Shown one piece after another: positions 50,123-64,000 of a stretch of 64,000 bases of DNA. Below the pieces are notes generated by a model that saw only the letters and a program-made list of their open reading frames with translations, made no database searches and was not told the origin of the DNA. The position numbers and the translations under genes were made by a program. Within the stretch, counting starts at the first letter, position 1; every line of letters starts with the position of its first letter. The stretch is taken from contig NZ_BMKK01000010.1 in the NCBI RefSeq assembly GCF_014644295.1, forward strand, positions 62,001 through 126,000, in the 5' to 3' direction. The stretch comes from Emticicia aquatilis. GTDB lineage: Bacteria; Bacteroidota; Bacteroidia; Cytophagales; Spirosomataceae.

Positions 50123-52945
50123 TTAGGTGAATAATGCCCCATATCTTTTTGACCTCATACTAAAAGCATCAATTCCGCCCTCCATTACATTACATATTTC
50201 CTCTTTAATATCTCCTTTTTCAACACTTCCGGTTAGTTTTACCTGAATGTGTTTAGTTTCAGAGTCCATTACAATAATATGCTCACTGTCACCATTTACA
50301 GGGATATTTGCGTTGTGCGTAACAACAATAATTTGTCGAAATTCTTTAGAGTGACGCATTTGGTCGACTACTAAGTCATAAATAAGTCGATTATCTAAAT
50401 CATCTTCGGGCTGGTCAAGAATCAAAGGCTTTGTGCCATGAGACAATAGAAGAGTTAAAATTGCTGCCGTTTTTTGACCAGCAGAACCATTTGAAATTGG
50501 TTTATATGTATTCCCAAGTTTGTATTCTATTTGAATTTCATCTTCTGGAAAAAGTAAATCTAATTGGTCTATACTTTCATCATTTAGATTATGTAATTTA
50601 TTTGTAAAAAAAAGTTTATTAAAACTACCATCGTTGGTTTTATTTTGAAAATGCTGAAATAGAAAATCAAATATTTCTTGATTTTTTTCTAATATCTTGT
50701 TCGGGTTCGTTCCTTCCCATTTCTCTACAATATTTTTTACATCATTAGCAAAATTTTGCTCATCTAAGTTAAATATCCTTCTAATCTCTTCCGAATAACT
50801 TTCATAATCTTTACATAAAAGCACTTTTGCTCTCACATTCCTGCCATTTAATATGGTATCTAAGAATTTCTGACGCTTCTGCTGTAACTTTTTACGTGAA
50901 TCAAAGTATAACCTCTTTGTACTTTCCTTTTTACCCACAAGAATAGTTAGTTCCTTCTCATAATTGTTAATTATATCAAGTTCTTGTTTTTTCTGGCTCA
51001 ATAAACTAATATCTTTTTCTATTCCTTCTAAATCAATACCTTGAACAGTTAAATGTTCCTTTGTTATTTTGAAGGTTTCATTGGCTGTATTAAATGATTC
51101 TTGCCATTGACTTATTTCAAATTGTTTTTGTAAATTTGTTAATAGAGTAACATATTCATCCTTTAATTCTTCCAATTTTGTTTTTACTGCTTTTATCCTA
51201 TTAGAGGTATTTGAAAAAAGACCATTAAATTCATCTTGATGTTCAGTTCTTATTAAGCTATTATCAATTTCTGTTGAAGATAAATTAAGTATCAAATCTT
51301 CAAACTTTACAACTTTACTTTCTATTGAATTTTTATATACATTAATAAATCTCTTTTCTTCTTCAAAACTTTGTAAATCTTTCAGTAATGTATCAGCCCC
51401 ACTTGTCTTAAATTGCTTAATTTTTCTTTCTAAATCTTCTATATCAAGTAATATTGTGTTCTTATTTGCTATTTTTGATATTAAATCTCTTACCTTTTTT
51501 GATTCATCTGTATATGTTTGTTGAATCACTTCTAATTCCCTTTCAATTTCTAAGATTGCTGGCTCTGATTTATCTATTCGAGTTCGCAATGAATTTGGAG
51601 TTGTAGCAATCTCGTAAATTTGTTTTTGCGAAAAAATATCAAATTCAAGTCTATCAAGTATTTCTGGGTTTTGTTTTAATTCAAAGAGTTGAGTTTCTTC
51701 ATTGAATTGAGAAACAGTTATGGTTTTATTTTGGAAAGAAACAGCATAATTAATTCCTCCCCGTGAAATATGTATCTCGATAACGGTATTTTCTTTTAAT
51801 ACACCACTTTTATTCTTACCCTTTTGTTTCAATTGAAAAAATTTTACAAAATCAGCGTGTATATTGTCAAGAGATTTTAATTCATCGCTTCTTTTAAAAA
51901 CACCACGAATAAACTGAAGAATACTTGATTTTCCACTACCTCTTCCACCAATGATTGTATTCATCTGAGGACTAAAGTCAACGCATAAATCTACCCCTGT
52001 CTTTGAAATTTCAGTATCTCTAATAATGATTTTCTGAATCCATAGATTAGGGAATTGCCTTGGAGAACCCTCAAAATCATTTCGAATTCTTAGTTTTGGT
52101 AATAATAGTGCTTGACGTAGACTTTCCAAAGACGGTTTTTCTTCCATTTTTATCCATGTATGACGAGTCCCTATTCCCCATAAACCATGAGATGAATCGC
52201 CTTTATCGTAAGGATTGTCAGAAAAAGTTAAAATTGCTTTGTTAGCATTTATAGCTTCTGTAACTACTCTACGAGCATTTTTCATTCTTTCATCAGTGAA
52301 TTTCCATTTTTTCTCCGCAATTTGTTTCTCAGTAAGACCATAATACTGATTTAATTCTATCAGAAAATTTAACTTTTGGTCATCATATATTTTTCCTGCT
52401 GTTGGTAAAGTGAATTTTTCATGAACAACCTGCACACTATTGATAGCTTTCAGTTTATAAAAGCTCTTGATGATTTCGCTTCCTGGTTCACAAAGACCAT
52501 TAAATTCATCAATATGAGCTGGTATTATTAAAGCCCCTTCTGAACTCGCAAGATTAACTACATCTTCCAAATTCATATTTGTATGAGCTGTTTGTTGTCC
52601 AAAATCTTTCCTTTCAATTTTAGCTTTTACTAAAAAATCTTCAACTTTTTGTTTTCCATATTCAACATCAAATAAAATTAACAAATGAACTTTTGCATCA
52701 CTACAAGTAATTTCAACACCTGGAAAAACTGTTAATGTAGTATTTTTAGAGGCATCTTTTATTTTATCTACCCATTCTGCGGTATTATGGTCTGTTACAG
52801 CTACACAATTTAATCCTTTGTCAAGTGCTTCTTGAACCCATTGCTCAGGTGTAACATTATTATGATTTTTAAAACACAAACTCGCTGGTGTATGTAGATG
52901 TAAATCACATTTATACCAACGAGTTCCCACAAATGCACTACTCAT
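50123..52945 (-). CDS. TrlF-like protein: PHP phosphoesterase fused to SMC-type ATPase
   Basis: A 940-residue protein. The N-terminal PHP domain (about 1-300) has metal-binding motifs CDLHLHTP, AVTDHNT, GVEITCSD...KVHLL, IIPAHID and FSDNPY. It is followed by an ABC/SMC-type ATPase split by a coiled coil (about 450-690). The Walker A is GGRGSGKSS (near 338), the signature-like sequence is GSAGQK, the Walker B is LILDQPEDDLDN (near 843) and the H-loop is VTHNANI. This order matches proteins annotated as TrlF-family AAA-like ATPases. PHP domains hydrolyse phosphodiesters, so a DNA- or nucleotide-activated nuclease is likely; a defence role is inferred from its position and neighbours. It looks intact and is more A/T-rich by eye than the core genes. 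Confidence 0.8.
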   Translation of the reverse strand: MSSAFVGTRWYKCDLHLHTPASLCFKNHNNVTPEQWVQEALDKGLNCVAVTDHNTAEWVDKIKDASKNTTLTVFPGVEITCSDAKVHLLILFDVEYGKQKVEDFLVKAKIERKDFGQQTAHTNMNLEDVVNLASSEGALIIPAHIDEFNGLCEPGSEIIKSFYKLKAINSVQVVHEKFTLPTAGKIYDDQKLNFLIELNQYYGLTEKQIAEKKWKFTDERMKNARRVVTEAINANKAILTFSDNPYDKGDSSHGLWGIGTRHTWIKMEEKPSLESLRQALLLPKLRIRNDFEGSPRQFPNLWIQKIIIRDTEISKTGVDLCVDFSPQMNTIIGGRGSGKSSILQFIRGVFKRSDELKSLDNIHADFVKFFQLKQKGKNKSGVLKENTVIEIHISRGGINYAVSFQNKTITVSQFNEETQLFELKQNPEILDRLEFDIFSQKQIYEIATTPNSLRTRIDKSEPAILEIERELEVIQQTYTDESKKVRDLISKIANKNTILLDIEDLERKIKQFKTSGADTLLKDLQSFEEEKRFINVYKNSIESKVVKFEDLILNLSSTEIDNSLIRTEHQDEFNGLFSNTSNRIKAVKTKLEELKDEYVTLLTNLQKQFEISQWQESFNTANETFKITKEHLTVQGIDLEGIEKDISLLSQKKQELDIINNYEKELTILVGKKESTKRLYFDSRKKLQQKRQKFLDTILNGRNVRAKVLLCKDYESYSEEIRRIFNLDEQNFANDVKNIVEKWEGTNPNKILEKNQEIFDFLFQHFQNKTNDGSFNKLFFTNKLHNLNDESIDQLDLLFPEDEIQIEYKLGNTYKPISNGSAGQKTAAILTLLLSHGTKPLILDQPEDDLDNRLIYDLVVDQMRHSKEFRQIIVVTHNANIPVNGDSEHIIVMDSETKHIQVKLTGSVEKGDIKEEICNVMEGGIDAFSMRSKRYGALFT

Positions 52946-56358: not shown

Positions 56359-56469
56359 ATTCTACGAAACAAAATTGTATTTCTCCCTTATATTGACTAA
56401 AATTGTATTTATTATGTTACAATTTTATAGTTTGTCACACTAACACTCTAATTGCTTTATTCAACCAAT

Positions 56470-57504
56470 ATGTCATCCACGAAATTCTTTACTAACGAAA
56501 GCAATAATACTCTAATCAATAAAATCGAAGGAATCTTCAACCATAGAAATATTCATTTTTTTGACGCTTTAGTAGGTTATTTTCGTGCGACTGGATATTT
56601 CCGCATTCGCCCTTTTATCGAAAAATCTCAAGAAATCAGAATTTTAGTGGGTATCAATGTTGATAAACTGATTGTAGAAGCCCAAAAGCAGGGAGTTCTT
56701 TTTGAAGTAGATGTATTAAAATCCCAAGAAGATTTTGTAAAAGACATCAAAGAGAATATCCAAAAAGCTGAATATAAAAAGGAAATTGAAGATGGAATGT
56801 TGCAATTGATTAAAGACTTACAAAACGGCAAAGTTAAAATCAAAGTCCATCCTAAACAGAATATTCACGCTAAAATTTATATTTTCAGAGAAGAAACTAA
56901 GCATAATCATGGATACGGTGCTGTAATAACTGGGTCAAGCAACTTAACAGAAGCAGGCTTAGAGCGGAACTTTGAATTTAATGTTGAACTCCGTGAAGAT
57001 GCCGATATTGAATTTGCTACCGATACCTTTAATAGATTATGGGAAGAAAGTATTCCTGTATCAGAAGAATATATTGAGAAAATCAAAAAAGAGACCTATC
57101 TCAATGATTCTTTTACTCCCTATGAAGTTTATATCAAGTTTTTGATTGAATACTTTGGTAAAAGTGTTGAATTCGACCCAAACTCAGTATCAGATTTGCC
57201 CAAGGGATTTAAACGCCTATCTTACCAAGTTGATGCTGTCAATGATGGATACAATAAAATGATGCGTCATGGGGGCTTTTTCTTAGCAGATGTAGTGGGT
57301 TTAGGCAAAACAATTGTTTCTGCACTCATTGCCAAAAAGTTTTTCTACTTTAATGGGTTTCCAAGTTATGTTTCTCGTACACTTATCATTGTTCCGCCAG
57401 CTCTTAAAGGCAACTGGGAAGAAACGCTTGATAAATTTCAATTCATTAACTATGATATTGTAACGAATGGGAGAAGGATTATCAACAGATGCAGCAAAGT
57501 ATGA
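56470..57504 (+). pseudogene. Truncated PLD-nuclease/DEAD-helicase (N-terminal third only)
   Basis: About 344 residues from the ATG at 56470. The N-terminal phospholipase-D-like domain has an HxK motif (IHAKIYIF) with GSSNLTEAGLERN. It is followed by the beginning of an SF2 helicase core: RLSYQVDAV, then Walker A-like ADVVGLGKTIVSALIA and LIIVPPALKGNW. It stops abruptly after INYDIVTNGRRIINRCSKV with no DExx box or later helicase motifs. Full-length relatives, known from defence islands, exceed 900 residues. The tail codons change character near 57480, so a deletion junction is likely. A non-functional remnant. Confidence 0.75.
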
Positions 57505-57840: not shown

Positions 57841-60800
57841 ATGAAAGAAGAGTTACCTAATGTGATGTTGCCTTTTGTGAAAGATTATTTTCAGGCGAAC
57901 TATTATGAGGTTATCAATATTAACTCAGAATCAGTAGAACAGAAAGATAAATTACTACTTTACCAATTTAGGTCTTTGCAAGAGCTTGGAAAGTTTGTGG
58001 AAGCAAATATATTTTTAAAAGAAAAACTCAAAGTTGTAACTGATGAATTAATCTACAAGCATTTGAGTCTCTGGAAATGTTTTAACGAAATATTTATTCA
58101 AGCATTTGAATCATTTGAAATTGGTTTAAAAGAATTTGAGGCAGTTTTTGCAAAATTTCAACAGAATGACAGCCAATTATTGGCTTTATACTATGGTCTT
58201 AAAGCTCGTCTGCTTGAACTCGGAATTAGCTTAGGCTTTTTATCCTCTTTACAAAAAACTGAGGCTATTAATCTTCATAATCATTCATACGAGTTTTACA
58301 TTAAAACAAACAACTTTGAAGAAGCACTCCTCACTAAATATCGAATAGTTGAACTACACTTAAAAGGACCAACATCTAATAAACTTGAGTCAAATAAACT
58401 TCTATTGCAAATAATAACCGAATCCGAAAAAATTCAATTCTCCTATCTGCTGATTAAAGCCAAATTGAAGATTGCACAATTAGAGTTTGAGGAAGCCGCT
58501 AATACAGAAACACTCGATTTCAATAAAGTTGATAATACATACAACGCAATACTCGAAATTGCAGAAGCACACAAATTGGATAATGGTGCGGCCAATGTAT
58601 TTTATGAATTAGGTACATTGCTTTTAGAATATGGCTATGCCAATGGAATAAACTTGTTAAATAAGGCAATTGAAAGATATAAAATATTAAAGGAATACAC
58701 TAAAATTCAACAGTCGTGGCGAAACATTGCCCGTTGGCACTTACAACGTGGTGAAGAAGCTGAAAATATAAAAGCGGAAGCAGAAGTTAACCAGTTAAAT
58801 GAACATATTTCTATTCAACTTTCTGAGCAAATCGAAGACCTATACAAAATTTTTGTTGCTCAAAAACAAGGAGATGCAGCTTATATTTATGGTTTTGATG
58901 ATAAATCTGAACAAAAAAACAATAGTTGGATTAAAAATCAAAGACTTACTTTAAAGGCCAATACTTATATTTCGGTTGGCAGACAAGCCGAAGGAATTGC
59001 TTTAATGAAAGAAATAATTTCAAGATATAAAACTATTGGTGTTACACCTTTTCTTTCTGAAGCTTTGTTCAACCTCTCCAATGTTGTAGTTAGCGATAAT
59101 ACGCAAGAAGCAATTCGCTTCATCAATGAAGCAATCAAAATAGACGAGATTTTAGAGGATTACTATGCTTTGTCACAAAGATATTTTCAATTGGCTTCAC
59201 ACCTATTTTTTTATAATAAACCGAATTTTATTTTTAGTTCTGAAATAGAAGATTACTTTAATAAAGCCGAAAAATATGCCTTGAGTTCGCACAAAGTTGA
59301 TTTTAAACTTCAATTAGGGAATATTTATCAAACAAAAGGACAGTTGTACGGAATCATAAATGACTACGAAAATGCAGGGAAATACTTGACACAGGCAGAA
59401 AAAATATTTGACAATTATCATTTAACGCCTCAATTAGCTTTTACCTTATCACAACAGGGTCTTGTATTACTTAAAGTTACACGTGAGTTTAAGAACCCTA
59501 AAACTTTTGATGATGCTTACGAGCGTTTTTCCGAATCTGCAAATTTGTTTAAATCAAATAGCTTGAATACATCTTTGTGGCGTACTAAGTTTCATCAGGC
59601 TCTTTGTAAATACGAGTTGGCACAAAATTTACCCTCTAATAGTGAGGAATTTTATCAAAATTTAGAACAAGCCGAATGGCATTTCAAAGAAGCAGCTCTC
59701 TTAGTAGATGAGCTTAGATTTGTGGCTGATAATAAAACTGGTATCCAACGCCAGTTGGCTGTCTCTGATTTTGGGGAAGACAAACAAGACCTCTATCTTC
59801 AAGCATTTTATGCCAATTTTTGGATGAAGAAAGATTATATCAATGCCATAACTTGGCTCGAAAGAATGAAAAGCCAATCATTCCTTTTAGAAACTTCGGT
59901 CGAAAAAATTAAAATAAAACGAACAAAAACATACGACGACTACAAATTACTACTCCAGAAATATCAAGCCGAAGAGAAAGCTTCTAAAAAACTTCTTCTA
60001 AAAAGTAAAATGGAACAACTTTTATCTAATCTCTTTAACTACTCAAATATTGAAAAGAAAACTGGATATATAGAACCCATTGCTAATTTTAATTTGATAA
60101 AAGATTTAGTCAAAAGAGCCGAAGAAGCCAATGGGCAACAAATATTAATTGTTCAGTACTTTAGTGTACCGACTTTGACTGTTGCTTTTGGCATTCGTTC
60201 TGACTGGGAGCAACCCAAAATTTATCGTATTAATTTAAATTATGAAACGTTAAAGAATACTGTAAAAACTTTTTTTCATAAAACTGAAGGAGTAAGAAAT
60301 GCCGAAAGTAGCACCAGTGAAAACAGATTTTTGGAAGAGTTTAAAGAAAAAAAAGTTTGGGATATAAGCTTTGAGCAAAATTGGCAACAATTCAATAGTC
60401 TAATTACACCAATCAATGAATGGGCCAGCACTGATGACATAGTTTGTTTAATACCACACGGTATTTTGCATGATTTACCTTTACACACACTCAAAATACA
60501 ACCAAACCAATATTTCATTGAGCGAAACCCCATATTTTATAGCCCAAGTTTATCTATTCTACAACAAACCTTGGAAAGAAAGAAAACACGAAACAAAAAA
60601 GATAAGAAAGCTGTATTTGGCAACCCAACACATGATTTGCCTTTTGCAACGACTGAGGCAGAATATATTGCAGAAAAGATAAATGATGCTAAACTATTAC
60701 TGAACGAAGCCGCCAGCAAAGACAAGTTTTTAGAACTGTACCCCAAAAGTGCACTCTTACATTTTGCTGGACATGGTAAAGCTCAAGCCTCCAATGGCTT

Positions 60801-61158
60801 AGAACAATACATTTTATTGGCCGATAAACAAAAACTAACGGCAAAAGAAATCTTTGAACAAAAAACCAGTGCCGATTTAATTGTGTTAAGTGGCTGCGAA
60901 ACAGGTGTGAACGAATACCAAACAGGTGATGAACTTTTTGGAATGGTACGCTCAATCTTAAACTCAGGAGCAAAAAGCTTGCTTGTGAGTTTATGGGCAG
61001 TAAATGATAGCTCCACCTCTAAATTATTCACCAGTTTTTACGACCAATATACAGTTCAAAATAAAGCAAAAGCACTACAAATGGCCATGAAAACCATGAT
61101 TAGCGAAGGTTACGGCTTTTACCATTGGGGAGCTTTTGTTTTGGTTGGGAAGTTTTAG
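57841..61158 (+). CDS. TPR-CHAT caspase-like protease
   Basis: A 1105-residue protein. Residues about 1-690 are helical with multiple TPR-like units, for example AKLKIAQLEFEEAANTET and SLSILQ-free stretches such as TLKANTYISVGRQAEGIALMKEII. Residues about 770-1105 form a CHAT caspase-like domain with catalytic His in LLHFAGHGKA (His978) and Cys in VLSGCETGVNE (Cys1019), followed by GDELFGMVRSILNSGAKSLLVSLW and GFYHWGAFVLVG, all conserved in active CHAT proteases. No signal peptide. Such proteins are cleaving effectors in several bacterial defence systems. It has its own promoter, is unbroken unlike its upstream neighbours, and overlaps the opposing WD40 gene by 59 bp. Confidence 0.9.
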   Translation: MKEELPNVMLPFVKDYFQANYYEVININSESVEQKDKLLLYQFRSLQELGKFVEANIFLKEKLKVVTDELIYKHLSLWKCFNEIFIQAFESFEIGLKEFEAVFAKFQQNDSQLLALYYGLKARLLELGISLGFLSSLQKTEAINLHNHSYEFYIKTNNFEEALLTKYRIVELHLKGPTSNKLESNKLLLQIITESEKIQFSYLLIKAKLKIAQLEFEEAANTETLDFNKVDNTYNAILEIAEAHKLDNGAANVFYELGTLLLEYGYANGINLLNKAIERYKILKEYTKIQQSWRNIARWHLQRGEEAENIKAEAEVNQLNEHISIQLSEQIEDLYKIFVAQKQGDAAYIYGFDDKSEQKNNSWIKNQRLTLKANTYISVGRQAEGIALMKEIISRYKTIGVTPFLSEALFNLSNVVVSDNTQEAIRFINEAIKIDEILEDYYALSQRYFQLASHLFFYNKPNFIFSSEIEDYFNKAEKYALSSHKVDFKLQLGNIYQTKGQLYGIINDYENAGKYLTQAEKIFDNYHLTPQLAFTLSQQGLVLLKVTREFKNPKTFDDAYERFSESANLFKSNSLNTSLWRTKFHQALCKYELAQNLPSNSEEFYQNLEQAEWHFKEAALLVDELRFVADNKTGIQRQLAVSDFGEDKQDLYLQAFYANFWMKKDYINAITWLERMKSQSFLLETSVEKIKIKRTKTYDDYKLLLQKYQAEEKASKKLLLKSKMEQLLSNLFNYSNIEKKTGYIEPIANFNLIKDLVKRAEEANGQQILIVQYFSVPTLTVAFGIRSDWEQPKIYRINLNYETLKNTVKTFFHKTEGVRNAESSTSENRFLEEFKEKKVWDISFEQNWQQFNSLITPINEWASTDDIVCLIPHGILHDLPLHTLKIQPNQYFIERNPIFYSPSLSILQQTLERKKTRNKKDKKAVFGNPTHDLPFATTEAEYIAEKINDAKLLLNEAASKDKFLELYPKSALLHFAGHGKAQASNGLEQYILLADKQKLTAKEIFEQKTSADLIVLSGCETGVNEYQTGDELFGMVRSILNSGAKSLLVSLWAVNDSSTSKLFTSFYDQYTVQNKAKALQMAMKTMISEGYGFYHWGAFVLVGKF

Positions 61159-64000
61159 GTTTTACAATCACATCTTTGATTTCATACTTCTTTTTTATTT
61201 CATCATCTAAAGGCAAAAGATATGTATCCTTAAATGCTTCTTTCCATTCTTCTATTTCTTCATAAGTATAATCTAAAGGTTCGCCATCTCCATAGCTAAA
61301 TAGATTACCTTGTTGGGTTTGTAAGTCTGTTTTAATGATGGCTTTACCAACCGTTGCAAATAGATAACGACTATCTATTATTTTTGCATTAGTTGGGATT
61401 TTGTTTACCCATAAAGTTTGAAGGGCTTTACCTGTGCTTAGCTTCCAGGTGGTTATTTTATGTTTGGATATTGTGATTAACCATTTACCGTCATCAGAAA
61501 CGGTGGCAGAAATAATACTTTTTTCATCCTTTAAGAAATCAGGAGATTTACCGCTTCCTACTTCCCAGACTTTGGATTCATCATTGCTATTTCTCGTCAC
61601 CAACCATTTACTGTCATCAGAAAAGGTGGCATAAAGAATACTTTTTTCATCCTTTAAGAAATCAGGAGATTTTCCGATTCCTACTTCCCAGATTTTGGAT
61701 TCAAAATTACTATTTCTCGTCACCAACCATTTACTGTCAGATGAAAAGATAGCATCACTAATACTTTTTTCATCCTTCAAGAAATCAGGAGATTTTCCGA
61801 TTCCTACTTCCCAGATTTTGGTTTCAAAATTACTATTTCTCGTCACCAACCATTTACTGTCCTTTGAAAAGGTGGCATTATTAATACTTTTTTCATCCTT
61901 CAAGAAATCAAAAGATTTTCCTATTCCTAATTCCCAGACTTTGGATTCCAAATTGATATTTGTAGTCACCAACCATTTACTGTCAGATGAAAAGGTAGCA
62001 TAAATGATACTTTTTACATCCTTTAAGAAATCAGGAGATTTTCCTATTCCTAAATCCCAGACTTTGGATTCCAAATTGATATTTGTAGTCACCAACCATT
62101 TACTGTCAGGTGAAAAGGTAGCATAAATCATACTTTTTTCATCCTTCAAGAAATCAGGAGATTGACGGATTCCTAATTCCCAGACTTGAGATTCATTATT
62201 TCCATTTCTTGTCACCAACCATTTACTGTCAGATGAAAAGGTGGCATCACTTATACTTTTTTCCTCCTTTAAGAAATCAGGAGATTTTCCGATTCCTAAT
62301 TCCCATAATTTGTATTCAAAATTGCTATTTCTCGTCACCAACCATTTACTGTCATCAGAAAAGGTGGCATCACTAATGCTTTTTTCATCCTTCAAGAAAT
62401 CAGGAGATTTTCCGATTCCTAATTCCCAGATTTTGGATTCAAAATTACTATTTCTCGTCACCAACCATTTACTGTCATCAGAAAAGGTGGCATCACTAAT
62501 GCTTTTTTCATCCTTCAAGAAAACAGGAGATTTACCGCTTCCTACTTCCCAGACTTTGGATTCATCATTGAAATTTATCGTCACTAACCATTTACTGTCA
62601 GCAGAAAAGGTGGCATAACGAATACTTTTTTCATCCTTTAAGAAATCAGGAGATTTTCCGATTCCTAATTCCCAGACTTTGTATTCAAAATTACTATTTA
62701 TCGTCACTAACCATTTACTGTCATCAGAAAGTGTGGCAACACGAATACTTTTTTCATTCTTTAAAAATTCATGATTTTTACTGCTTCCTACTTCCCAGAC
62801 TTTGGATTCATCATTGAAATTTATCATCACCAACCATTTGCCATCATCAGAAAAGGTGGCAGAATGAATACCTTTTTCATCCTTTAGAAAATCATGATTT
62901 TTACCGCTTCCTACTTCCCAGACTTTGGATTCATCATTGCCATTTCTCGTCACTAACCATTTACTGTTATCAGAAAAGGTGGCAGAACGAATACTTTTTT
63001 CATCCTTTAAGAAATCAGGAGATTTTCCGATTTCTAATTCCCAGATTTTGTATTCAAAATTACTACTTCTCGTCACCAACCATTTACTGTCCTTAGAAAA
63101 GGTGGCATCACTTATACTTTTTTCATCCTTTAAGAAATCAGGAGATTTTCCGATTTCTACTTCCCAGACTTTGGATTCATTATTGCCATTTCTCGTCATT
63201 AACCATTTACTGTCAGATGAAAAGGTGGCAGAAATAATACTTTTTTCATCCTTTAAGAAATCATGATATTTTCCGATTCCAACTTCCCAGACTTTAGATT
63301 CCAAATTGCTATTTGTAGTCACCAACCATTTACTGTCCTTTGAAAAAGTGGCATAACTAATACTTTTTTCATCCTTTAAAAAATCATGATTTTTACCGCT
63401 TCCTACTTCCCAGACTTTGGATTCATCACTGAAATTTATCGTTACCAACCATTTACTGTCAGCAGAAAAGGTGGCATCACTTATACTTTTTTCATCCTTT
63501 AAGAAATCAGGAGATTTTCCGCTTCCTACTTCCCAGACTTTGGATTCATTATTGCTATTTTTTGTCACCAACCATTTGCCATCATCAGAAAAGGTGGCAT
63601 AACGAATACTTTTTTCATCCTTTAGGAAATCATGATTTTTACCGCTTCCTACTTCCCAGAAGTTGGATTCAAAATTGCTATTTTTTGTCACCAACCATTT
63701 ACTATCCTTAGAAAAGGTGGCTGATTTAACATTTAAGAATCGCCCTTTTTCTTGGAAATGATGATTATTGCTATTATTAAAGATTAGAGAGTCTTGTTCT
63801 CTAATCACATTTCGGGTCTTAATATCTTTTGTTAGTTCCAATGCCTTATCTAATAAATTTAAACCCTGAATTGGGTTAAGTTTACCAGCCTCCGAGGATA
63901 AGTAAAGTGCTTTGGCGTTGTTAGTGGCTATTTGGGCTTGTTTAAGTGCTTTAATAGTCTCTTTAGTTTTTTTGTCAGCAATTTCCTGTAATTTTATTGC
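61100..64000 (-). CDS. WD40-repeat protein with 19 near-identical blades (5' end outside window)
   Basis: The frame is open to the window edge: codons upstream of the TTG at 63841 continue without a stop (AIKLQEIADKKTKETIKALKQAQ... LYLSSEAGKLNPIQGLNLLDKALELTKD), so the gene is incomplete here. This upstream helical stretch, then a string of WD40-like blades, resembles the C-terminal part of STAND-NTPase or similar sensor proteins. Blades carry the ATFSxDSKWLVT...KVWEVG pattern, where W in 'KVWE' replaces the usual WD. The last about 105 residues form a distinct tail. It converges on the TPR-CHAT gene. A receptor role is inferred. Confidence 0.85.
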   Translation of the reverse strand, partial: AIKLQEIADKKTKETIKALKQAQIATNNAKALYLSSEAGKLNPIQGLNLLDKALELTKDIKTRNVIREQDSLIFNNSNNHHFQEKGRFLNVKSATFSKDSKWLVTKNSNFESNFWEVGSGKNHDFLKDEKSIRYATFSDDGKWLVTKNSNNESKVWEVGSGKSPDFLKDEKSISDATFSADSKWLVTINFSDESKVWEVGSGKNHDFLKDEKSISYATFSKDSKWLVTTNSNLESKVWEVGIGKYHDFLKDEKSIISATFSSDSKWLMTRNGNNESKVWEVEIGKSPDFLKDEKSISDATFSKDSKWLVTRSSNFEYKIWELEIGKSPDFLKDEKSIRSATFSDNSKWLVTRNGNDESKVWEVGSGKNHDFLKDEKGIHSATFSDDGKWLVMINFNDESKVWEVGSSKNHEFLKNEKSIRVATLSDDSKWLVTINSNFEYKVWELGIGKSPDFLKDEKSIRYATFSADSKWLVTINFNDESKVWEVGSGKSPVFLKDEKSISDATFSDDSKWLVTRNSNFESKIWELGIGKSPDFLKDEKSISDATFSDDSKWLVTRNSNFEYKLWELGIGKSPDFLKEEKSISDATFSSDSKWLVTRNGNNESQVWELGIRQSPDFLKDEKSMIYATFSPDSKWLVTTNINLESKVWDLGIGKSPDFLKDVKSIIYATFSSDSKWLVTTNINLESKVWELGIGKSFDFLKDEKSINNATFSKDSKWLVTRNSNFETKIWEVGIGKSPDFLKDEKSISDAIFSSDSKWLVTRNSNFESKIWEVGIGKSPDFLKDEKSILYATFSDDSKWLVTRNSNDESKVWEVGSGKSPDFLKDEKSIISATVSDDGKWLITISKHKITTWKLSTGKALQTLWVNKIPTNAKIIDSRYLFATVGKAIIKTDLQTQQGNLFSYGDGEPLDYTYEEIEEWKEAFKDTYLLPLDDEIKKKYEIKDVIVKPKTSQPKQKLPNGKSRNLR
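61418..63739 (-). repeat. Tandem array of 19 x ~123-bp WD40 blade repeats
   Basis: Nineteen consecutive units, mostly exactly 41 codons, with consensus FLKDEKSI-xx-ATFSxDSKWLVT-xx-SNxESKVWEVGxGKSPD (x variable). The framework is nearly invariant; variation concentrates at unit positions 9-10, 15, 23, 25, 27, 29 and 36. First unit 37 residues, last one divergent. High identity suggests recent unequal recombination or conversion. Confidence 0.9.

Follow-up and report, generated by a model that had tools for sequence, protein, structure and literature searches.

The right-hand end of a 64,000-nucleotide stretch of DNA from Emticicia aquatilis (contig NZ_BMKK01000010.1, positions 62,001 to 126,000; hereafter the window, G000:C10:62001-126000 in our numbering of genomes and contigs) holds two convergent genes. 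One encodes a protease in which tetratricopeptide repeats (TPRs) precede a CHAT peptidase domain, and the other a protein rich in WD40 repeats, whose gene is cut by the window edge. Do these two genes form a functional pair? A previous interpretation based on the nucleotide sequence of the window (the sequence-only reading) had proposed that the WD40 protein senses a target and that the TPR-CHAT protease executes, with the tail-to-tail overlap coupling their expression antagonistically. We continued the reading beyond the window edge and arrive at a different partnership: the WD40 gene is the last of a four-gene operon, which probably encodes a membrane-spanning STAND (NLR-like) alarm with the WD40 protein as its sensor. 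The kind of system envisioned by the sequence-only reading is thereby retained (a WD40 sensor, a STAND-type logic and a caspase-fold executioner in a probable conflict system), but its wiring is not, since the WD40 gene lies in a same-strand operon with an NTPase, a CHAT protease and a caspase of its own, and this unit recurs without the TPR-CHAT gene.

Gene content and occurrence of the operon

The four genes are located on the minus strand in the order caspase/hydrolase, CHAT2 protease, nSTAND1 NTPase and secreted WD40 protein, the last of these being the gene that the window cuts. The first encodes a protein of 1089 amino acids (G000:C10:129775-133044) that combines an N-terminal caspase domain with an alpha/beta hydrolase (DUF7379/PGAP1 type) at its C-terminus. 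It is followed, outside the window, by the gene for CHAT2, a protease of 591 amino acids (G000:C10:127970-129745) with SGH and NGC motifs, and, immediately upstream of the WD40 gene, by that for an NTPase of 562 amino acids with one predicted membrane helix (G000:C10:126285-127973). The WD40 gene occupies window positions 61100-64000 and extends a further 288 bp to G000:C10:126288; the sequence past 64 kb, to which the sequence-only reading had pointed for the missing N-terminus, completes the protein to 1062 amino acids, of which 966 are encoded inside the window, and adds an N-terminal signal peptide. The operon genes to the right of the TPR-CHAT gene are all open and full-length, so that the earlier description of the latter as surrounded by decayed genes is correct for its left side, where a truncated helicase gene is found, and incorrect for its right side.

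Four-base ATGA overlaps are present at both the CHAT2/NTPase and the NTPase/WD40 junctions. Overlaps of this type commonly mark translational coupling, which is thus possible at these two junctions of the operon and not at the convergent gene pair, for which the proposed antagonistic coupling has found no support.

With a score of 127.8 bits against PF20703 (cut-off 27.1), the NTPase belongs to the nSTAND1 family; its Walker motifs are GVSGTGKT at position 43 and YLIFDQFEE at position 114. CHAT2 is a CHAT peptidase as judged by its match to PF12770, its invariant His and Cys residues, the latter being Cys108 in E. aquatilis, and its CHAT fold; no fold could be called for its helical middle and beta-rich end, the structure alignments covering mainly residues 1-220. 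The caspase domain scores 91.2 bits against PF00656 (cut-off 21.4) and possesses a His86/Cys147 dyad. PADLOC 2.0.0 matched the caspase protein with a generic caspase model (3.8e-31) and weakly with Unk_05; its system models matched none of the WD40, NTPase, CHAT2 and TPR-CHAT proteins, and NCBIfam has no name for the WD40 protein, the NTPase or CHAT2.

CHAT2 and the NTPase are conserved as a pair. Among 200 genomes of the family, a CHAT2 profile (46 rows) found matches in at least 38 at E <= 1e-25, and the NTPase query in at least 69 at E <= 0.001, many of the latter being weak matches to other proteins; since at most six (CHAT2) and seven (NTPase) candidates were scored per genome, these genome counts are lower bounds. 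At least 31 CHAT2 matches, found in at least 25 of the 200 genomes, are full-length (about 530 or more of the 587 model positions; shorter matches from other CHAT-domain proteins or from split genes such as that of G196 are excluded), and in 31 of 31, as judged by eye from the coordinates, the NTPase gene is directly adjacent on the same strand. A set of 78 named loci was built from the best 80 of 169 relatives and hence represents closer relatives, nearly all of them Bacteroidota; here, the NTPase gene directly follows that of CHAT2 at 70 of the 73 informative loci. This count comprises 69 of the 78 loci called by script plus L052 (early start codon); the misses are L086, L124 and L126, while four loci at a contig end and L125, which lacks a called CHAT2 open reading frame, were left out. 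The family loci (L026-L045) and the named loci (L050-L127) overlap (L026/L050, L028/L051) and are thus not independent. The unit is rare in the phylum as a whole, with matches in at least three of 395 genomes (up to three candidates being scored in each), two of them full-length (E. aquatilis itself and G031); it is patchy in the genus as grouped by the search tool, where at least 2 of 11 genomes have it in full length. A caspase/hydrolase gene immediately preceding that of CHAT2 is seen most clearly in the closest relatives, namely Emticicia sp. C21, Flectobacillus and L030 (as a fragment at the start of a contig). In Emticicia sp. C21 (L026) and Flectobacillus sp. BAB-3569 (L028), the CHAT2-NTPase-WD40 module is tandemly duplicated behind one caspase gene.

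Membrane topology and placement of the sensor

Behind the NTPase domain, all 24 NTPases from the family loci carry a candidate membrane helix that starts between residues 419 and 520; a second, weak candidate is present inside the NTPase domain of the L045 protein. Nine of the 24 are long, and in eight of these the same polypeptide continues past the helix with a match to the WD40 protein (L033, with 840 amino acids, is the exception). In another 14, the chain ends shortly behind the helix, and a separate sensor gene comes next, overlapping the NTPase gene or lying within 1 bp of it; the remaining one is truncated by the end of its contig. Judged by a simple rule, 13 of the 14 separate sensors possess a signal peptide, as opposed to 46 of 121 other open reading frames, 2 of 23 CHAT2 proteins and none of the 24 NTPases. 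Because the NTPase must be cytosolic and has a single helix, its C-terminal tail should be located outside, and since the fused and the split forms of the sensor agree, the sensors should face the periplasm. The arrangement in E. aquatilis departs from that of a classical NLR, in which the sensor repeats are fused to the NTPase and lie with it in the cytosol; here, the sensor is the product of a separate gene with a signal peptide.

Larkinella and its relatives encode, after the fused NTPase-WD40 gene, a protein of about 450-570 amino acids with an N-terminal hydrophobic segment (L034 11778-13124, L035 5410-6837, L036 5592-6944, L039 2618-4294, L045 11794-13509), which shows weak similarity to caspases in four of the five cases. 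Larkinella also encodes very large proteins (about 1700-2300 amino acids, some cut by the ends of the retrieved stretch) whose genes are oriented divergently to that of CHAT2, most of them with signal-peptide-like starts and WD-like motifs (L034 1-5619, L035 12911-18001, L036 12987-18221, and at L081, L087, L102, L106 and L127).

Diversification of the WD40 repeats

The WD40 protein contains 19 homogenized repeats of 41 amino acids (123 bp; window positions 61385-63721, minus strand), each with six hypervariable codons. Tandem Repeats Finder reports 18.2 copies of the 123-bp unit with 86% matches; the repeats are not due to chance. Our statistics rest on 18 of these 19 repeats and on 15 of the 17 repeats of Flectobacillus, the last ones being degenerate; among the sensors with regular repeats, selection was computed for these two. 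The mean identity of the 18 E. aquatilis repeats is 75.8% at the protein and 85.1% at the DNA level; the repeats of the long Flectobacillus sensor are 75.9% identical, and those of the short one reach 0.75 by a cruder measure. Between the two species, the repeats are 57.6% alike, and this drop from the high identity within a sensor argues that the repeats evolve in concert. Compared between the two Flectobacillus sensors, the repeats are 73% identical, a value close to that within a single sensor, which suggests either exchange between the two or a recent duplication.

Codons 5, 13, 15, 17, 40 and 41 stand out by an entropy of 1.7-2.2 bits and by mostly nonsynonymous changes. In E. aquatilis, the ratio of nonsynonymous to synonymous changes (pN/pS) is 2.83 at these six codons and 0.28 at the other 35 (P of the ratio 0.013), a contrast that is biased upward, since the six codons were picked by entropy from the same repeats. 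Flectobacillus therefore serves as the held-out test: for the same six codons, left unchanged, pN/pS is 2.03 versus 0.59 elsewhere, and their pN stands out against that of random sets of six codons (P 5e-5); the six codons have a pN of 0.425 when all 17 repeats are included. The entropy profiles of the two species are correlated (Spearman 0.52, P 5e-4). In the predicted model of the WD40 protein, whose predicted local distance difference test (pLDDT) score is 75.8, the fifteenth repeat forms strand a from residue 39 to 3, strand b from 9 to 14 and strand c from 19 to 23, which would place codons 15 and 17 in the b-c turn, codon 13 at the edge of this turn, and codons 40-41 where strand a begins. 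Going by these strands, five of the six codons would be close to the top, codon 5 being the exception.

The variable positions invite a comparison with fungal allorecognition. In the het-d and het-e genes of Podospora anserina, positive selection acts on codons 7, 9, 25 and 27, on either side of the conserved residues 8 and 26; within the propeller, these codons fall into the d-a loop and the b-c turn (PMC1805685). Our alignment was anchored at the V-x2-V-x-F-S and S-x-D motifs. On the WD40 consensus, we take the four Podospora codons to correspond, in the order given, to positions 38, 40, 15 and 17 of the bacterial repeat. Three of them (9, 25 and 27, corresponding to 40, 15 and 17) are thus among our top six, with a chance probability of 0.007 for this post hoc comparison; the fourth, Podospora position 7, corresponds to a conserved position (38). 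HET-E and HET-D (HNWD proteins) share with the operon a STAND NTPase combined with WD40 repeats of high internal identity and a few hypervariable codons, which in the fungal genes are positively selected (PMC1805685, PMC12222747). As in the HET-E type, identity within the E. aquatilis sensor exceeds that between sensors (0.758 versus 0.576 to Flectobacillus), although the internal value is somewhat below the over 80% given for Podospora. The fungal proteins differ in that a single polypeptide also carries a HET effector domain, whereas here a separate secreted sensor, a membrane-spanning NTPase, and CHAT and caspase executioners are encoded.

Gene order, the conservation of the CHAT2-NTPase pair, the helix candidate, the fused or signal-peptide-bearing sensors, and homogenized repeats with hypervariable codons are thus established at the level of sequence. 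Building on them, we envision that the propeller, presumably located in the periplasm, would dock onto the C-terminal NTPase tail and recognize, at the cell envelope, a variable cue of non-self or damage, be it phage adsorption, the entry of DNA, or the weapon of a competitor. Binding of the cue would cause the cytosolic NTPase to exchange its nucleotide and to oligomerize, and the NTPase assembly would then activate the CHAT2 protease in the cytosol, along with the caspase/hydrolase in the subtype present in E. aquatilis. The activated proteases would cleave host targets, so that the affected cell is arrested or killed, while homogenization of the repeats, together with selection at the binding positions, would keep the recognition surface changing. 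The first links of this chain rest on the gene and protein data described above; the cue, the assembly and the killing are inferred from the protein families concerned.

The convergent gene, known systems and competing explanations

Several known systems resemble parts of the operon. Cyanobacterial STAND-WD40 proteins have near-identical blades (WRAP propellers) and a suspected immune role (PMC9218822), and fusions of metacaspase, NACHT and WD40 domains are known (PMC3501461). The STAND ATPase, the near-identical blades, the link to caspases and the proposed function in innate immunity are thus shared with the operon (PMC9218822, PMC3501461), but the cyanobacterial propeller is fused to the ATPase, and neither a secreted sensor nor a CHAT2 partner is described in the accessible text. 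Position-specific selection is not described there either; the term 'positive selection' is absent from PMC9218822. The nSTAND1 domain has been named in counter-invader systems (PMC8195603), and EACC1-caspase is a membrane-linked two-gene conflict system (PMC7159879); such systems have a caspase, a membrane link and sometimes nSTAND1 in common with the operon. They differ from it in that the membrane element is here part of the NTPase and is followed by a presumably periplasmic sensor. The caspase is not of the EACC1 type by its score against the caspase_w_EACC1 model (52.7 bits, cut-off 140), and no EACC1-named match was found among the 10 proteins of the locus, in libraries whose content of an EACC1 model was unchecked. 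In Thiohalocapsa PB-PSB1, STAND sensors, some of them predicted to be periplasmic, are diversified by a diversity-generating retroelement (DGR), and a caspase-like CHAT domain is present in one target (PMC10907252); STAND NTPases and hypervariable sensors are hence common to both, but the retroelement acts on lectin folds and the diversity found here resides in WD40 repeats. A DGR was considered and rejected as the source of the variability in E. aquatilis: RVT_1 matches are present only on contig C21 of the genome and not on C10 (template repeats were not searched), and the changes among the repeats are not limited to one base. The closest solved structure to the CHAT2 protease domain is SAVED-CHAT (PDB 8tl0), which is activated through its SAVED domain, whereas CHAT2 is associated with a STAND NTPase; Pfam detected no SAVED domain in CHAT2. 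SAVED domains sense cyclic nucleotides. Our literature search, which did not extend to the supplementary tables of PMC7159879 and PMC8195603, found in the accessible texts no description of a unit of CHAT2, membrane-spanning nSTAND1 NTPase and secreted sensor, nor one of position-specific diversification in bacterial WD40 sensors.

The TPR-CHAT gene of the window (57841-61158, plus strand; 1105 amino acids) is intact, as had been read from the sequence, and lies outside the conserved unit. Its CHAT domain (residues 854-1104; window positions 60400-61152) is preceded by weak TPRs, belongs to the CHAT peptidase family (168.7 bits against PF12770, cut-off 24) and contains the previously recognized His978 (within FAGHG) and Cys1019 (within SGC). 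The WD40 stop codon is indeed located 59 bp inside this gene (61100-61158). This overlap falls where the WD40 protein ends in a Lys/Pro-rich tail of poor conservation, and is probably incidental; that it arose when the WD40 gene was recently extended by read-through is unsupported, since the tail of the Emticicia sp. C21 protein is similar in length and composition. A promoter of its own, as had been claimed for the TPR-CHAT gene, is unsupported without being disproved: the scanned stretch contains 56 sigma-70-like sites versus 63.0 +/- 7.1 in shuffled sequences, and the consensus used may not suit Bacteroidota. Craspase, the type III-E effector, consists of gRAMP and TPR-CHAT. The architecture of TPR-CHAT is that of the window gene, but no gRAMP or other Cas-type effector was matched beside it among the 10 proteins of the locus that were scanned. 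Two further CHAT proteins encoded elsewhere in the genome (L001, L003) have, by eye, a hydrophobic C-terminal segment, unlike TPR-CHAT.

To the left of the TPR-CHAT gene lies the remnant of a defense-type gene, a truncated PLD-SNF2 helicase of 350 amino acids (56452-57504, plus strand), which matches PbeA (7.1e-18, model positions 33-328 of 672) and PLD_Helicase (1.1e-09, positions 27-295 of 905) and thus covers only the front part, about the first third to half, of these anti-phage models. About 5 kb from the TPR-CHAT gene, a PHP-SMC ATPase of the Ppl type, a cataloged anti-phage family, is encoded (50123-52945, minus strand; PADLOC Ppl 8.6e-96, PHP and SMC_N domains). The fact that these three genes stand together suggests a small defense-gene cluster, in which TPR-CHAT looks like a separate neighbor of the operon. 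The upstream flank of the operon (G000:C10:133352-135151, L004 16353-18152) encodes a short LytTR protein and a 427-amino-acid protein for which three libraries gave no family match; an NrtR-type Nudix regulator adjoins the operon as well.

Several observations weigh against the sensor-and-alarm reading or narrow it. A caspase homologue is present at only 28 of the 78 named loci, many relatives carry other sensors, and the membrane layout is that of one branch, since in a second branch CHAT2 is accompanied by a soluble NTPase of about 350-375 amino acids without a membrane helix (L082, L090, L093, L095-L097, L101, L103-L105, L110, L113, L115, L116, L118, L120, L123). Even among the 24 family NTPases, the helix of the L028 protein (residue 419) is borderline. 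The signal-peptide rule is lenient, given that 46 of 121 background open reading frames pass it, and the L031 sensor fails it, though signal-like by eye. A crude hydrophobicity threshold is passed by 9 of 23 CHAT2 proteins; in the E. aquatilis CHAT2, the hydrophobic stretch (residue 87) is within the protease core and hence probably not a membrane helix. The pN/pS ratio of Flectobacillus taken alone yields a P of 0.05-0.08, and its own top six codons are 5, 13, 15, 17, 18 and 25, without 40 and 41. The Emticicia sp. C21 sensors are much less homogenized. The predicted template modeling (pTM) score of the WD40 model is 0.50, and codon 5 would be located in the a-b turn or loop, opposite the expected binding face of the other five. 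Finally, CHAT2 was found neither in viral contigs nor on plasmids, so that mobility is unproven.

How do other explanations fare against the same data? The pairing of the WD40 and TPR-CHAT proteins in a two-gene conflict system draws on two intact, adjacent genes with a 59-bp overlap and on the active-site residues of the protease. It is, in our view, largely refuted and highly improbable. The WD40 gene has operon partners of its own; TPR-CHAT is matched at none of the 20 family loci and is the best match at one of the 78 named loci (L109), where the distant similarity is restricted to the CHAT domain (27% identity). The co-occurrence that such a pair would predict is thus lacking as far as searched. 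No full-length relative of TPR-CHAT was found in the 200 family or the 395 phylum genomes, that of E. aquatilis included (at most three and two candidates per genome, respectively, being scored), its relatives sharing the CHAT domain only, at 27-39% identity. In addition, the two proteins are expected in different compartments, since the WD40 protein has a signal peptide, whereas TPR-CHAT has neither a signal peptide nor a membrane helix by simple sequence rules. Position is therefore the sole link between TPR-CHAT and the operon, to which it looks like an unrelated neighbor.

The operon could instead serve self-recognition, development, or programmed death in a social or filamentous bacterium, with a trigger from kin or from the envelope rather than from phages. 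Many Bacteroidota glide or form filaments, and, as noted, nearly all of the best 80 of the 169 relatives belong to this phylum; the WD40 repeats, hypervariable and homogenized, follow the same logic as het-d and het-e in fungal allorecognition (PMC1805685). We nevertheless regard this as unlikely, because the patchy presence of the unit in the genus and its position beside defense-type genes are better accommodated by immunity. A housekeeping role, in which the WD40 protein would sense cell-wall damage, the proteases would activate a regulator, and the repeats would reflect drift and recent amplification, seems quite improbable to us: recently amplified propellers are a common feature of bacteria (PMC9218822), and the short LytTR protein and the NrtR-type regulator adjoin the operon, but drift does not predict that pN exceeds pS at matching codons of two genera, and the distribution of the unit is sporadic.

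The reading of the operon as a transmembrane STAND alarm with the WD40 protein as its sensor thus remains the one that we favor. In its most far-reaching form, which we put forward only tentatively and which may well turn out not to hold, it describes a surface-facing bacterial NLR, in which a membrane-spanning STAND NTPase reads a secreted, diversifying WD40 propeller and passes the signal on to two caspase-fold proteases in the cytosol, and in which the binding residues diversify through homogenization and selection at positions common to fungal allorecognition receptors. Most known NLR-type immunity acts inside the cell. If true, the surface-facing NLR would be an immune or kin receptor of adaptive appearance, directed at threats that have not yet entered the cell; its conserved layout, with a variable sensor outside and executioners inside, would represent a bacterial alarm at the envelope, and hypervariable positions shared with the het genes of fungi would suggest that the same route to diversity in recognition has been reached by both bacteria and fungi.
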